36,420 nucleotides of DNA from Candidatus Anaerobiospirillum stercoravium (GTDB lineage: Bacteria; Pseudomonadota; Gammaproteobacteria; Enterobacterales; Succinivibrionaceae). This document shows positions 2,328 through 18,308 of the stretch, in pieces. Positions within the stretch are counted from its first letter, which is position 1, and each line of letters starts with the position of its first letter. A program made the translations under genes and the position numbers. The notes beneath the pieces are model-generated. The model did not search any database. It saw only the letters and a program-made list of their open reading frames with translations, and was not told where the DNA came from. The DNA lies in NCBI GenBank assembly GCA_019113025.1, contig DXIF01000038.1:1-36420 (forward strand), given 5' to 3'.

Positions 2328-5252
2328 ATGGAAAGCGTCCTCTACATACCGCAAGAGTCCAAGGCTCGCCAATTCATTAACAAATGGCAGGCAGCCAAAG
2401 GGAGCGAGACCCAAGAGGGAATTCTCTTTTTGCTTGAGCTTTTCGGCGTCACGAACACTCAAGGTCAAGAGCTCCCAGATATCAACGACCTGATCAAATA
2501 CCAAGAAGCCGTAAGACTTGGCACGGGCAAGAATCAGCGTAAAGTCATCGGTCGCATTGACTTGCTCCTTGAGCAGAGCGAAGTGCTCATCGAGCAAAAG
2601 AGCAAAGGCGTCGATCTCAGCAAAAAGCAGCGCCAGTCTGATGGCTCGATGCTCACCCCCTACCAACAGGCCTTACGCTACAGCAAGAAGCTTGACGCAA
2701 GTATCAGCATCATTGTCGTCTGCAACTTCGACGAGTTTTGGCTTTACAACCTCAAGCTCAACCCAGCGCACCCAGAACTGATCACCCCCAAGGTTATCAA
2801 GCTCGATGCGGATTTTGAGCACAACGTCGCGTGCCTCAGATTTTTGCTTGATCCGAGCATGCTGCAGCAGGATGATCCGTTTACCCCGCCCCCATCGGCT
2901 TTATCGATCGATGCGGGCTACCGCATTGCGCGCCTCTATAACGAGTTGCTGCCACTCTACCAGACAAAAGATCAAGAGCGCGTACACCAAGACCTCAATA
3001 AGTTTTGTGTTCGAATGGTCTTCTGCTTTTACGCCAGCGATGCCGGGCTGTTCAACGACGACCAAGGCCATAATCTGTTCCAATCCTACTTGGAAAATGT
3101 CCCGGCTAAGGTCGGCTCCCTTGTGCTACAGGAGCTGTTCCTAACGCTAAACACCCCGTCGCAAGAACGCAAGGCAGAAGCCCACCCATTCTTGCGTGGC
3201 TTGCCATATGTTGATGGCGGCTTGTTTGAGCAAGCAGAGAGCGCGCTCATCCCCGTCTTTAACGACAAGGTCACGCAGTTGCTCTGCGACGAGCATTACT
3301 ACAATTGGCGTGACATTAACCCGACCATCTTTGGTGCGGTCTTCGAGAGCACCTTTGACCCAGAGGGGCGCCGCTTTGGGGGTATCCATTACACCACTGA
3401 GGCGAACATCCACAAGGTCATTGACCCGCTGTTCTTAGACGAATTGAAGACTGAGCTTAATGCTTGCCTGAGCATGGCAGATCCAAAAGCACGTACGAAC
3501 AAGTTGTGCCAACTCCAAGACCATCTTGCGAGTCTCACCTTCCTTGATCCGGCATGTGGCTCAGGCAACTTCCTGACTGAGACCTATCTGAGCCTGCGCC
3601 GCCTAGAAAATCAAATCGTCCGCGAGCTTTACGCCTACCAATCCTTCTTGGGACTGAAGGCTCTCACCCCAATCAAAGTCAGCTTGGAACAATTTGCCGG
3701 CATAGAGATCAACGACTTTGCAGTCGCTGTGGCCAAAACCTCGCTGTGGATCGCCGATATTAAGATGCGCAAAGCGACCAAAGCCATCATCAATGAGACA
3801 ATTGACGAGTTACCGCTCAAGGACTACGACAACATTGTGGTTGGCAACGCCCTAACCATGGACTGGAGCCGAGACGTCAAGTTGGACAAGATCGACTACA
3901 TCATGGGCAATCCGCCATTTAGCGGAGCGCGCGTAATGACCAAGGCCAACAAGCAAGATCTGCAACAAGCCTTGGGCCCAGACTGGCCGACTCATGTCTG
4001 GGATCTTGATTTTGTTAGTGGCTGGTTCAAAAAAGCACATGATGTCATGGCTCAAGAGCCACACATCAAGACCGCCTTTGTCGCGACCAACTCAATCTGC
4101 CAAGGCACCTCCATCACCAACCTCTGGGCTCCGCTGCTCCAAGGCGGCTCAGAGATCATCTTTGCGCACCGTTCCTTTCTCTGGCACAGCGATGCCATCG
4201 ATCAAGCCCATGTCTACTGCGTAATCATTGGACTTACGCACCAGACCACCAAAGGTCCTAAGTTCATCTTCTCGAATCAAGAGGTAATTACGACTGAGCA
4301 CATTAACGCCTACCTAATGGAAGGCGAAGACACCTTCATCTACGATCGCCACACTCCTTTATGCCCATCTCCAATCGGCCTCTCAGGCTGTCAGCGCCTT
4401 GATGATAACCACTACATCTTTACCACCGAAGAAAAAAATGAATTTCTTCAACTTGAGCCGCAGGCGGCACCTTACTTCAAGCGCTGGTATGGCAGTAAAG
4501 AGCTGCTCCAAGGCAAGATCCGCTATTGCCTTTACTTAGGCCAGTGCTCAGTAGCCGAATTAGCCCAAATGCCCGAGGTACGCAAACGGGTTGAAGCAGT
4601 ACGGCAGTATCGACTAACGAGCAGCTCAGCTAAACCTAATACGGGCGCTAATGAGTTCCATTATGAACCACAGCTGCAAAATGACTTCTTGGTCATACCG
4701 CGCGTATCTTCATCCAACCGCGATTACATTCCAATTGTCTTCCTACACCCTGACGATGGTTTATGTAGCGATCAAGTTAAACTATTTCCCGACGCCACGC
4801 TGTACCATTTCAGCGTGCTAAGCTCATCGGTGCACATGGTTTGGGTCAAGATGGTAGCAGGACGCCTTAAGATGGACTTCCGCTACTCCACTGAGCTCGT
4901 GTACAACAACTTCCCGTGGCCGCAAGAGCTCAGCGCGCAACGGCGCAGAACCTTAGCCCAGGCCGCGCAAGCCATTTTAGACGCACGCGCCCAGTACCCT
5001 AAGCTGAGCTTAGCGCAGCTCTATGACCCAAAGAAGATGCCACCTTCCTTGCGTAAGGCCCATCAGCACAACGACCGCTTGGTACTCAAAGCCTATGGCT
5101 TTGACCCAACTTGGTCGCAAGAGCAGATCTTTGCAGCGCTGTTTAAGCTTTACGCCAAGCTAATCGCCGCAGAAAAGCAGCGGCTGATCAGTGCTGAGAG
5201 CAAGACGCGCCGTCGCTCCAAGGGTGGCAAGGCCAAAGCCAGCGCAAAATAG
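2328..5252 (+). CDS. MmeI-like Type IIL/IIG bifunctional restriction endonuclease/DNA methyltransferase, full length (974 aa)
   Basis: N-terminal RIDLLLEQSEVLIEQK fits a D-X(n)-EXK nuclease motif; DPACGSGNFL and NPPF MTase motifs; C-terminal TRD-like region. Paralog of 3..1910. Confidence 0.88.
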   Translation: MESVLYIPQESKARQFINKWQAAKGSETQEGILFLLELFGVTNTQGQELPDINDLIKYQEAVRLGTGKNQRKVIGRIDLLLEQSEVLIEQKSKGVDLSKKQRQSDGSMLTPYQQALRYSKKLDASISIIVVCNFDEFWLYNLKLNPAHPELITPKVIKLDADFEHNVACLRFLLDPSMLQQDDPFTPPPSALSIDAGYRIARLYNELLPLYQTKDQERVHQDLNKFCVRMVFCFYASDAGLFNDDQGHNLFQSYLENVPAKVGSLVLQELFLTLNTPSQERKAEAHPFLRGLPYVDGGLFEQAESALIPVFNDKVTQLLCDEHYYNWRDINPTIFGAVFESTFDPEGRRFGGIHYTTEANIHKVIDPLFLDELKTELNACLSMADPKARTNKLCQLQDHLASLTFLDPACGSGNFLTETYLSLRRLENQIVRELYAYQSFLGLKALTPIKVSLEQFAGIEINDFAVAVAKTSLWIADIKMRKATKAIINETIDELPLKDYDNIVVGNALTMDWSRDVKLDKIDYIMGNPPFSGARVMTKANKQDLQQALGPDWPTHVWDLDFVSGWFKKAHDVMAQEPHIKTAFVATNSICQGTSITNLWAPLLQGGSEIIFAHRSFLWHSDAIDQAHVYCVIIGLTHQTTKGPKFIFSNQEVITTEHINAYLMEGEDTFIYDRHTPLCPSPIGLSGCQRLDDNHYIFTTEEKNEFLQLEPQAAPYFKRWYGSKELLQGKIRYCLYLGQCSVAELAQMPEVRKRVEAVRQYRLTSSSAKPNTGANEFHYEPQLQNDFLVIPRVSSSNRDYIPIVFLHPDDGLCSDQVKLFPDATLYHFSVLSSSVHMVWVKMVAGRLKMDFRYSTELVYNNFPWPQELSAQRRRTLAQAAQAILDARAQYPKLSLAQLYDPKKMPPSLRKAHQHNDRLVLKAYGFDPTWSQEQIFAALFKLYAKLIAAEKQRLISAESKTRRRSKGGKAKASAK

Positions 5253-14770: not shown

Positions 14771-15394
14771 ATGGCAAAGCATACAGGACCAGCTCTTAAG
14801 TTAAGCCGTCGCGAGGGCGTGGATTTATTCTTAAAGTCTGGCGTTCGCTCGATTGATACCAAGTGCAAGTTAGACACTGCACCTGGTCAGCACGGTGCTA
14901 ACAAGGCTCGCTTATCTGACTACGGTACTCAGTTACGCGAGAAGCAGAAGGTACGTCGTATCTACGGCGTGCTGGAGCGTCAGTTCCACAACTACTACAA
15001 GAAGGCTGCTAACATGCCAGGTAACACTGGTGAGAACCTGTTACAGCTGTTAGAAGGCCGTTTAGACAACGTCGTCTATCGCATGGGCTTTGGCTCGACC
15101 CGTATGGAGTCGCGTCAGTTAGTCAGCCACAAGGCGATCACCGTCAATGGCCGCGTCATCAACATCCCATCCTATCAGGTTCAGCCATCTGATGAGATCG
15201 CTGTTCGTGAGAAGGCCAAGAAGCAGCTGCGCATCAAGAACGCTATCGACCTCGCTGGCCAGCGTGGTTTAAAGCCAACTTGGATTGACGTAGACCACAG
15301 CGCCATGAAGGGTACTTACAAGAACAAGCCTGAGCGTTCCGAGCTCCCATCGGACATCAAGGAACAGCTCATTGTCGAGTTCTACTCTAAGTAA
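14771..15394 (+). CDS. rpsD: 30S ribosomal protein S4 (uS4)
   Basis: [21 protein letters not shown]...[19 protein letters not shown]. Confidence 0.98.
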
Positions 15395-15454: not shown

Positions 15455-16444
15455 GTGTCAGTTTGTGAGTTACTTAAGCCAAAGCCTGTTGGCTTTACTG
15501 AACTGGGCCCAAATCACGTTCGCATCACCTTAGAGCCTTTAGAGCGCGGCTATGGCAACACCTTGGGTGTCGCCTTAAGCGGCATCTTATTAAAGACTCT
15601 GCCTGGTTTTGCCTTTGATGCCTTCCAAATCGATGGGGTTGAGGATTTAACTTCGGTCAAAAAGGACATGGTTGAATCCTTAGTTGAGGTGGTGATGAAC
15701 TTAAAGAAGGTCGCCATTACCTCCAACCACACGATGCAAGGTCCGGTTTGGTGCACCTTAGCCAAGATGGGCGAAGGCCGAGTTCGCGCTGGCGATATCG
15801 TATGCCCGGAGGGCATTAGCATCTTAAATCCTGATGCGACTATTTGTACCTTAAAAGGGGCAAAGGCCTCGTTGTCGATGAATCTCCGCGTCGTTTACGG
15901 CAACGGATATGTGGTCGCCACTGATCCCAACCACTTACCTGCCAAGGAAAAGAATGAGATCTTAATTGACGCCGCATTCTGCCCGATTACACGCTATGTG
16001 TACGAGGTCGAGTCCGCTCGCGTTGAGCAGCGTACTGATCTTGACCGTCTGGTGATCGAACTTGAGACCAATGGCACCATTACGCCGGACGAGGCCTTAA
16101 TGCGCAGCGCCAATTTACTGTGCGAGCACATGACCAACCTCGTTGACAAGGACGACCTCCCAGAGCGTTCTGCGACGCCATCTGCGCCACCGCTGCCTGA
16201 TCCTGTGTTATTGCAACCAGTAGAAGATCTTGAACTGACGGTGCGCTCTGCCAATTGCTTAAAGGCAGAGGAGATTCTATATATTGGCGATTTAGTCCAA
16301 CGCACTGAGGTGGAACTGTTAAAGACGCCAAACTTAGGCAAGAAGTCCTTAACCGAGATTAAGGACGTCTTAGCTACGCGTGGTTTATCGTTGGGTATGC
16401 GCATTCCTAACTGGCCACCTCAGAACTTAGCGCGTTCGAAGTAA
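15455..16444 (+). CDS. rpoA: RNA polymerase alpha subunit, copy 1 (syntenic position, GTG start)
   Basis: 329 aa; alphaNTD diverged, alpha[50 protein letters not shown] nearly canonical; lies between rpsD and rplQ. Confidence 0.97.
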
Positions 16445-16474
16445 GCAATTACTGTCAATTCAGGAAGGTTTTCC

Positions 16475-16855
16475 ATGCGTCATCGTTTAGCTGGCCGTCA
16501 CTTAGGCCGTACGTCTGCCCACCGTGCAGCGCTGTACCGCAATCTTGCTAATGCTTTAATCAAGCACGAGATCATCAAGACCACTTTACCAAAGGCCAAG
16601 GAGTTACGTCGCTTCGTTGAGCGTTTAATCACCTTAGCCAAGAACGATTCGGTTGCTAACCGTCGTTTAGCCTTTGCGCGTTTACGCGACAAGGACATGG
16701 TCAAGAAGTTATTTGATGAAGTTGCCAAGGCCAGCGCTGAGCGCAACGGCGGCTACACCCGCGTTTTAAAGTGCGGTTTCCGTCAAGGCGATCAAGCTCC
16801 TATGGCTTACATCATGTTGGTTGATCGCACCAACTTAGACAACGACGAGGAGTAA
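16475..16855 (+). CDS. rplQ: 50S ribosomal protein L17 (bL17)
   Basis: [49 protein letters not shown]. Confidence 0.98.
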
Positions 16856-16932
16856 TTAGCCGCCCTAGGCTAACTCCTCGGGGCAAGGGCGCACCGCCCC
16901 CGCCCCAGAGCGCTAAGCCCCAGCCCTGCTAA

Positions 16933-16986
16933 ACTAGGCATAGCCATGCCTCACTAGGTACCGCCATGCCTCACTAGGCACCGCCC
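16933..16986. repeat. ~2.5 x 20-bp tandem repeat between rplQ and the second rpoA
   Basis: actaggcatagccatgcctc / actaggtaccgccatgcctc / actaggcaccgccc. Confidence 0.8.
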
Positions 16987-17012
16987 TTAGCTTGGCGCCC
17001 TGTCTGAGTTCC

Positions 17013-17157
17013 AAACGGCACCGCAAGTGCATCCTAGTACCATAATACTGGATGTTCTCTACGGTGCCGTTTAGTGCACTCAAGTCCGACCGGACCTTTA
17101 GGTGGTAGGTGGCACTCTTGTTCACCAAGCTAAAGGCCGCGGCCTGACTTGAGTGTG
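17013..17157 (+). promoter_or_regulatory. Two consecutive nested stem-loops in the leader region of the second rpoA
   Basis: AAACGGCACCG(17013-17023)/CGGTGCCGTTT(17062-17072), nested CATCC..AGTA/TACT..GGATG; then CACTCAAGTC(17078-17087)/GACTTGAGTG(17147-17156). Confidence 0.5.
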
Positions 17158-17324
17158 CTAATGCCCACTTGGCTTTTCATCAGCGCGCTCCATCCGTGCC
17201 GGTCACGCCTACCTACCTATCGGTCGTATAAGACCGTGTTCCCACTGCCTTAATCACGAGCGATAGGCGCGCGCCCCTAAGCTCAGGACAAGCCAAAACT
17301 ACCAACCATTTTGAGGGTGGAACC

Positions 17325-18308
17325 TTGGAGCAAATTGATTTTCTCAGGCCATCAATCAAGGCCATCGAGGAGATTGCACGCAACAAAACCCGTGTAACCC
17401 TTGAGCCTTTTGAGCCCAACTATGCCCAGATTCTGGGTACCGCATTGCGTCGCATCATGCTCTCCTCGCTTCCAGGCTATGCCATTACTGAAGTGGAGAT
17501 TGCAGGTGCCGTTCATGAGTACATGGCCCTTGAGGGGATCCAAGAGGATGTCTTATTAATCCTGTTAAACCTCAAGGAAGTCGCTGTCGCCTGTGAAAGT
17601 TCAGTTACGACTGAACAGATCTTACACATCAAGAAGGTTGGTGTTGGCCCAGTTACCGCAGGTGACATTGAGTGCCCAGCCAATGTTGAGATCAAGAACC
17701 CAGACTTGGTGCTGTGCCACATCACCGATCCGGACACTGAGCTCAACATGACGCTGCACGTCACCCAAGGTCGCGGCTACGTCCAAGCGCAGAACCAGCC
17801 CTTTGTTGAGAACGGTGACAACCGCTTTATCGGCCGTCTGTTAATCGACGCTTCGTTCTGCCCAGTGCTCAACGTTGCGGTGCACCCACGCACCTTAAAC
17901 AACGGCATGGAAGCCTTAGATCTCACCATTGAGACCAACGGCACCATCGCCCCAGAGGTTGCGATTTCCTTAGCGGCCACCATCTTTGCCGAGCAGCTCA
18001 ACTCCTTTGTTGACATCCGCAACAGCGTTGAGCCGGCCGAGGACACTTCGTTCCGTCCGCTCATCGATCCTAAGCTCATTTGCCCAGTTGAGGATCTGGA
18101 GCTCACGGTCCGTTCGGCTAACTGCTTAAAGGCCGAAGGCATCAAGTACATCGGTGACCTAGTACAGCGCACCGAGGTCGAGCTGTTAAAGACGCCAAAC
18201 TTAGGCAAGAAGTCCTTAACCGAAATCAAGGACGTCTTAGCCGAGCGTGGCCTGTCTTTGGGCATGCGCCTTGAGCACTGGCCGCCATCGGATATCGACA
18301 TCCGCTAG
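17325..18308 (+). CDS. rpoA: RNA polymerase alpha subunit, copy 2 (diverged paralog, TTG start)
   Basis: 327 aa; alpha[37 protein letters not shown] and intact alphaCTD; Shine-Dalgarno-like gaggg upstream of TTG. Confidence 0.96.

Follow-up and report, generated by a model that had tools for sequence, protein, structure and literature searches.

In the 36,420-nucleotide window analysed here (positions 1 to 36,420 of the forward strand of contig DXIF01000038.1, Candidatus Anaerobiospirillum stercoravium), two genes encode the RNA polymerase alpha subunit, and each copy (c1 and c2) keeps a docking surface that the other has lost. It is probable (roughly 0.86 by our estimate) that the RNA polymerase core of this bacterium is built from an obligate c1/c2 heterodimer of fixed orientation, with c2 as alpha-I on beta and c1 as alpha-II on beta'. 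This proposal is drawn from the divided docking surfaces and from a polarised dimer interface, and we infer the formation, orientation and obligate nature of the heterodimer from sequence. In the proposed scheme, rpoA would have been duplicated around rplQ in a branch of the Succinivibrionaceae, and the two copies would have divided both assembly jobs of the ancestral alpha homodimer. Copy c2 would have become the beta-bound alpha-I, keeping R44-R45, H66-E67-Y68 (HEY) and D77 and losing the 186-201 hairpin (E. coli numbering), while c1 would have become the beta'-bound alpha-II, keeping the hairpin and losing R45 and HEY. The dimer interface would have been polarised as well, with the F35/T38/L39 face of c1 placed on the ancestral I46/S50/Q227 of c2 and the opposite half co-diverged, and the resulting heterodimer would carry two near-identical C-terminal domains (alpha-CTDs).

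Both genes lie on the forward strand within the S13-S11-S4-rpoA-L17 cluster, whose end in the window reads S13, S11, S4, c1, L17, c2. The proposed alpha-II, c1 (15455-16444, GTG start), occupies the ancestral rpoA locus between its conserved upstream neighbour rpsD (S4, 14771-15394) and rplQ (L17, 16475-16855), and the proposed alpha-I, c2 (17325-18308, TTG start), follows L17. In both products, the Pfam domains RNA_pol_L, RNA_pol_A_bac and RNA_pol_A_CTD all score above curated cut-offs. The N-terminal domains (NTDs) of the two copies are 33% identical, and the alpha-CTDs (16196-16426 in c1, with intact DNA-binding residues; 18063-18290 in c2) are 84% identical. The nearest named relatives are uncultured Anaerobiospirillum MAGs and isolate NML120448 (78-96% identical at c1). 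The rplQ-c2 gap (16856-17324, 470 bp) contains three degenerate 20-bp repeats and a 22-bp inverted repeat (17071-17092/17140-17161), which might possibly take part in the regulation of c2; across genomes, the length of this gap ranges from 91 to 532 bp. Elsewhere in the window, two tandem MmeI-type restriction-modification genes (114-1910 and 2328-5252) were found, the first of which lacks the N-terminal domain.

The sequence-only reading, which had been made before any database search, assigned the reciprocal losses to particular codons of c1 and c2, and on realignment these coordinates proved exact. In c1, S42-G43 (AGC GGC, 15578-15583) replaces R44-R45, so that the beta-binding arginine is lost, and D-L-T (15644-15652) replaces HEY. 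The claim that c1 has also lost the Q75-E76-D77 stretch was slightly overstated, because V-E-S (15671-15679) changes Q75 and D77 but keeps E76. As had been stated, c1 keeps E80, K86 and the ten residues that correspond to E. coli 191-200 in the beta'-groove hairpin (16019-16048). Copy c2 likewise keeps R44-R45 (17448-17453), HEY (17514-17522) and the EGIQED motif, and its 11-residue hairpin sequence is replaced by a diverged stretch of 20 residues (17865-17924) with a four-residue deletion. The change of E80 to L in c2 (17556-17558) is real, but it was dropped as an interface marker, since three of four single-alpha relatives also lack E80, whereas Francisella alpha-I keeps it.

Searching the family revealed two alphas in 36 of 42 near-complete Succinivibrionaceae genomes; five of the 42, from genera g4 and g10, carry a single canonical alpha, and in one g7 genome the only alpha match lies at the edge of a contig. 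A single alpha is found in each of the 24 other families that were sampled from the order. Among 229 genomes sampled across the class, two alphas were found in only two other kinds, namely a Francisellaceae-like family (28/30 genomes when it was searched separately) and a lone genome in which both copies score as canonical. The gene order S4-c1-L17-c2, with rplQ between both alphas, is present in all two-alpha genomes examined (29/29), and single-alpha genomes have S4-rpoA-L17. In a maximum-likelihood tree of the NTD, built with the trait columns removed, all c1 sequences form one clade (100/95) and all c2 sequences another (100/93), and the two clades split alike into group A (four genera: g5, g6, g8 and g11) and group B (eight genera, including that of the window). 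A tree of S11, S4 and L17 has the form (g4+g10,(A,B)), with support of 86/84 for A+B. The two-alpha state of the Succinivibrionaceae is the outcome of one duplication. Separately, two single-alpha genomes of the order (G052, locus L073, and G057, locus L072) have very fast-evolving alphas, and that of G052 shows H66Q, K86Q and a diverged 191-200 segment.

The reciprocal loss is not a matter of chance, because it holds in 21/21 group B genomes from eight genera: R45 is kept in c2 in all 21 and in c1 in none, segment 191-200 is kept in c1 in all 21 and in c2 in none, and c1 has lost both R45 and HEY throughout (21/21). Both genes are under purifying selection, with dN/dS values within the genus of approx. 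0.11 (c1) and 0.10 (c2) for the NTD and 0.03 for the CTD. It could be argued that a single copy (c2-like alone, or c1 of group A) works mostly as a homodimer and that the other is accessory or slowly decaying, given that in group A neither R45 nor the beta' hairpin is missing from c1 and that Francisella alpha1 alone shows low activity (PMC3294249). However, each group B copy lacks a surface, purifying selection acts on both, and nearly all near-complete genomes of the eight genera contain the pair, which makes reliance on one copy very improbable in group B; for group A such reliance might still hold.

The sequence-only reading overlooked the Succinivibrionaceae genera that keep R45 in both alphas. 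In group A, c2 has lost segment 191-200 (8/8), and c1 keeps both R45 (8/8) and the segment (8/8). The beta' hairpin is thus restricted to c1 in all 29 genomes of groups A and B, whereas restriction of R45 to one copy is true for group B, including the window (21/21), and untrue for group A. Group A genomes are intermediates, in which the c2 hairpin is already gone and the c1 R45 is still present. Under the simplest reading of the tree, the order of loss would be the c2 beta' hairpin first and the c1 R45 second.

The altered residues had been predicted to lie on the beta and beta' interfaces, and the lost surfaces do match the R45 region and the 186-201 element. In E. coli, alpha R45 is needed for the alpha2-beta interaction and hydrogen-bonds near beta G1215/R1216, and residues 186-201 form an element that is remodelled as beta' enters the alpha-II groove (PMC13202282; PMC3294249). 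Retention of ancestral residues, scored on ancestrally conserved residues over ranges picked after the pattern had been seen, is 0.92 in c1 and 0.09 in c2 of group B at 186-202 (0.94 and 0.29 in group A), and 0.43 and 0.84, respectively, at 40-48 plus 64-78 (0.70 and 0.90 in group A). Published footprint ranges give the same direction more weakly, with group B values of 0.51 for c1 vs. 0.66 for c2 in the beta footprint (30-55/65-75) and 0.83 vs. 0.46 in the beta' footprint (175-185/195-210). It should be noted that R45 loss alone need not abolish beta binding, because B. subtilis R42A alpha (the R45 equivalent) still binds beta and the arginine is not essential there (PMC13202282).

Matching changes in rpoB and rpoC had been suggested earlier as a check. 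Beta R1216, a contact of alpha R45 in E. coli (PMC13202282), is an arginine in the outgroup (13/13), single-alpha relatives (3/3), group A (3/3) and Francisellaceae (8/8), and it is changed to T or M in 10 of the 11 group B genomes. The change matches the lineage in which c1 lost R45 and, being a single site, provides modest evidence: of the 902 conserved sites in beta, 37 are altered in group B, so that the chance odds are approx. 8% for two sites specified in advance. In addition, R45 is still present in c2, the copy that would sit on beta. An unbiased scan of outgroup-conserved sites (loci L100-L137) found nine sites in rpoB changed in both group B and Francisellaceae (3.7 expected, p 0.008; five of the nine in 729-787) and nine in rpoC (3.1 expected, p 0.0025; four of the nine in 503-567); the two clusters might be alpha-contact co-changes, and we treat the shared sites only as leads.

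The large subunits also carry insertions. After E. coli beta residue 412, rpoB (in the window's own genome, L100, G000:C73) carries a beta-lobe insertion of 133-148 aa, for which neither Pfam nor PDB gave a match. Each of the 15 genomes compared from groups A and B has it, and it is lacking in single-alpha relatives, in other families and in Francisellaceae; thus, it was gained on the branch of the alpha duplication. In rpoC (L100-L117), a 26-aa insertion follows E. coli beta' residue 592 in the family genomes compared that have a full-length rpoC, single-alpha genomes included, and a further 50-60 aa follow residue 1072 in group A only. One group A rpoB (G013, L111) appears split or frameshifted near a gap with undetermined residues, which is probably due to assembly.

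The changes at the dimer interface are one-sided. In the E. coli dimer, one monomer contributes F35/T38/L39, which pack against I46/S50/Q227 of its partner (Kannan et al., as quoted in PMC3294249). In group B, c1 keeps R33 and T38, and its S50 and Q227 are mostly changed (in the window, to T at 15596-15598 and to H at 16127-16129); c2 keeps I46, S50 and Q227, and its R33, F35 and T38 are mostly changed (in the window, R33 to P at 17415-17417 and T38 to I at 17430-17432). The half-interface comprising c1 33/35/38/39 and c2 46/50/227 is ancestral in 127/147 cells of group B, compared with 27/147 for the opposite half; R33 was added here to the published cluster, and without it the values are 106/126 vs. 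24/126. Group A shows the same direction with a weaker bias (56/56 vs. 37/56). In a homodimer of c1 or of c2, an ancestral face would meet a derived one in both halves, and an ancestral half-interface would exist only in the c1/c2 heterodimer. AlphaFold monomer models of c1 and c2, built from eight-sequence alignments, were too poor to use (mean pLDDT of 40 and 36) and were discarded.

The alpha-CTDs, on the other hand, are essentially alike in their DNA-binding and AR1 residues, and the eight DNA-contact residues are invariant in every copy, which indicates that the split concerns assembly and not promoter contacts. A regulatory split between the c1 and c2 CTDs was rejected, as the two share their determinants. 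Gene conversion was rejected as well: in the window, the DNA identity of the two CTDs within the genome is barely above that across genera (0.74 vs. 0.70), the largest difference being that of g14 (0.82 vs. 0.70), so that strong amino-acid conservation is sufficient to explain the likeness. Two homodimeric polymerases, (c1)2 and (c2)2, each serving its own gene set, would fit two intact and conserved genes, the second of which lies far enough downstream of L17 (91-532 bp) for separate regulation. Nonetheless, such an arrangement is highly unlikely, given that each copy lacks a docking surface that a homodimer would need, that the dimer interface is polarised, that the matching DNA-binding and AR1 residues give no sign of regulatory specialisation, and that the Francisella alphas, for which an alpha1/alpha2 heterodimer has been shown biochemically, form no appreciable amount of homodimer (Mukhamedyarov et al. 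2011, PMC3294249).

The Francisella heterodimer is the precedent for the c1/c2 pair proposed here. In PDB entries 6WMP, 6WMR and 6WMT, alpha 1 and alpha 2 are separate molecules present in equal numbers of chains (three each over the three entries). Copy c1 (P0001) is closer to Francisella alpha2 (185 vs. 172 bits), and c2 (P0002) is closer to alpha1 (211 vs. 150 bits). The second two-alpha family of the class, from which 12 genomes of six genera were compared, is presumably Francisellaceae, as it fits the published description of an operon copy with R45 and an unlinked copy with R45Q. In its alpha-I-type copy, R45, HEY and D77 are present in 12/12 genomes, and a deletion accompanies the loss of the 191-200 segment. 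The partner copy carries R45Q in 12/12 genomes, is devoid of HEY and retains ARVxxxTDL(D/N). The passages of PMC3294249 that deal with these residues name R45Q and K200T and not the deletion of the hairpin. When losses in the two families are compared over 115 conserved sites of the NTD, their profiles show a correlation of r = 0.56, a value reached by 0/114 circular shifts and 0/20,000 permutations. There are 15 concordant sites (R45, S49, H66, E67, Y68, D77 and F231; R33, T38, A190, R191, V192, T196, L198 and D199) and one discordant site (L47).

Shared losses might also reflect common descent, i.e., a pair acquired wholly or partly from a Francisella-like donor and working by the same mechanism. 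The alpha tree joins c1 with Francisellaceae alpha2 weakly (80/74), and AU tests reject no alternative. However, CTD identity to other families within the order amounts to 85% for both copies (81% in the case of group A c2), compared with at most 68% to Francisellaceae; c1 occupies the native locus; and group A c1 still has R45, so that the loss of R45 happened inside the c1 clade. A donor origin is very unlikely. CTD identity, the R45 loss within the c1 clade and the single-copy state of the intervening families point to independent events, and the shared losses evidently represent convergence.

Taken together, single duplication, clade-wide conservation, purifying selection, intermediates, a one-sided dimer interface, beta R1216 and the Francisella convergence all agree with the earlier proposal of duplication-degeneration-complementation leading to an oriented c1/c2 heterodimer, which every sequence-level test appears to support. 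It seems reasonably likely that, on two or more occasions in Gammaproteobacteria, the alpha homodimer has been converted into an oriented heterodimer along a nearly deterministic path, with the same hairpin and R45-HEY losses and polarised dimer contacts. The order of steps would then be readable from the intermediates (the c2 hairpin, followed by c1 R45 together with the relaxing of beta R1216), and group A, in which one alpha is a generalist and the other a specialist, would represent a functional stage midway along this path. The Succinivibrionaceae would provide a second, evidently independent bacterial case of the split known from archaeal and eukaryotic alpha homologues, with species still at the intermediate step. 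Assembling subunits of both groups and of single-alpha relatives in parallel would open the route from homodimer to obligate heterodimer to direct test, and the pattern identifies, without a structure, the residues that selection treats as beta and beta' docking surfaces. These observations also qualify two published views, namely that Francisella stands as the exception and that all bacteria conserve R45.

The principle itself is not new, because both the Francisella heterodimer and its analogy with Rpb3/Rpb11 were published in 2011 (PMC3294249), a precedent that the sequence-only reading also overlooked; the Succinivibrionaceae pair would be a further, evidently independent oriented alpha heterodimer of the Francisella type. 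Two rpoA genes are also present in Chloroflexus species and Streptomyces avermitilis (PMC3294249). In the open-licence literature, no paper linking Succinivibrionaceae or Anaerobiospirillum with rpoA was found, and Francisella was the sole relevant natural heterodimer among reports on duplicated or non-identical alphas.

Like the window, Francisella has two full-length alphas, one with R45, HEY and D77 but without the 190-199 hairpin and the other with the hairpin, R45Q and neither HEY nor D77; as in the Succinivibrionaceae, only the alpha-I type lacks T38 and R33, and the residues match site by site. The two systems differ in gene arrangement: the Francisella operon encodes alpha-I, with alpha-II encoded at an unlinked locus, whereas here the native-locus copy is of the alpha-II type and the alpha-I-type copy follows rplQ in the same cluster. 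The CTDs of the two copies are 60% identical in Francisella and approx. 83% here, and only the Succinivibrionaceae have intermediate-stage lineages and beta R1216T/M. The small partners Rpb11 and L lack the insert domain and the alpha-CTD. In contrast, c1 and c2 both keep the two domains, so that a small partner devoid of the insert domain, a trait of D/L and Rpb3/Rpb11, is not seen here. Nonetheless, archaeal RpoD/RpoL and Rpb3/Rpb11 resemble the proposed pair in being fixed-orientation heterodimers of alpha homologues whose beta-side member keeps the R45 equivalent (PMC3294249). Finally, oriented heterodimers of E. coli wild-type and R45A alpha have been made in the laboratory, where the R45-less alpha is forced into the alpha-II position (as related in PMC3294249); the arrangement proposed here would be natural, fixed and reciprocal.
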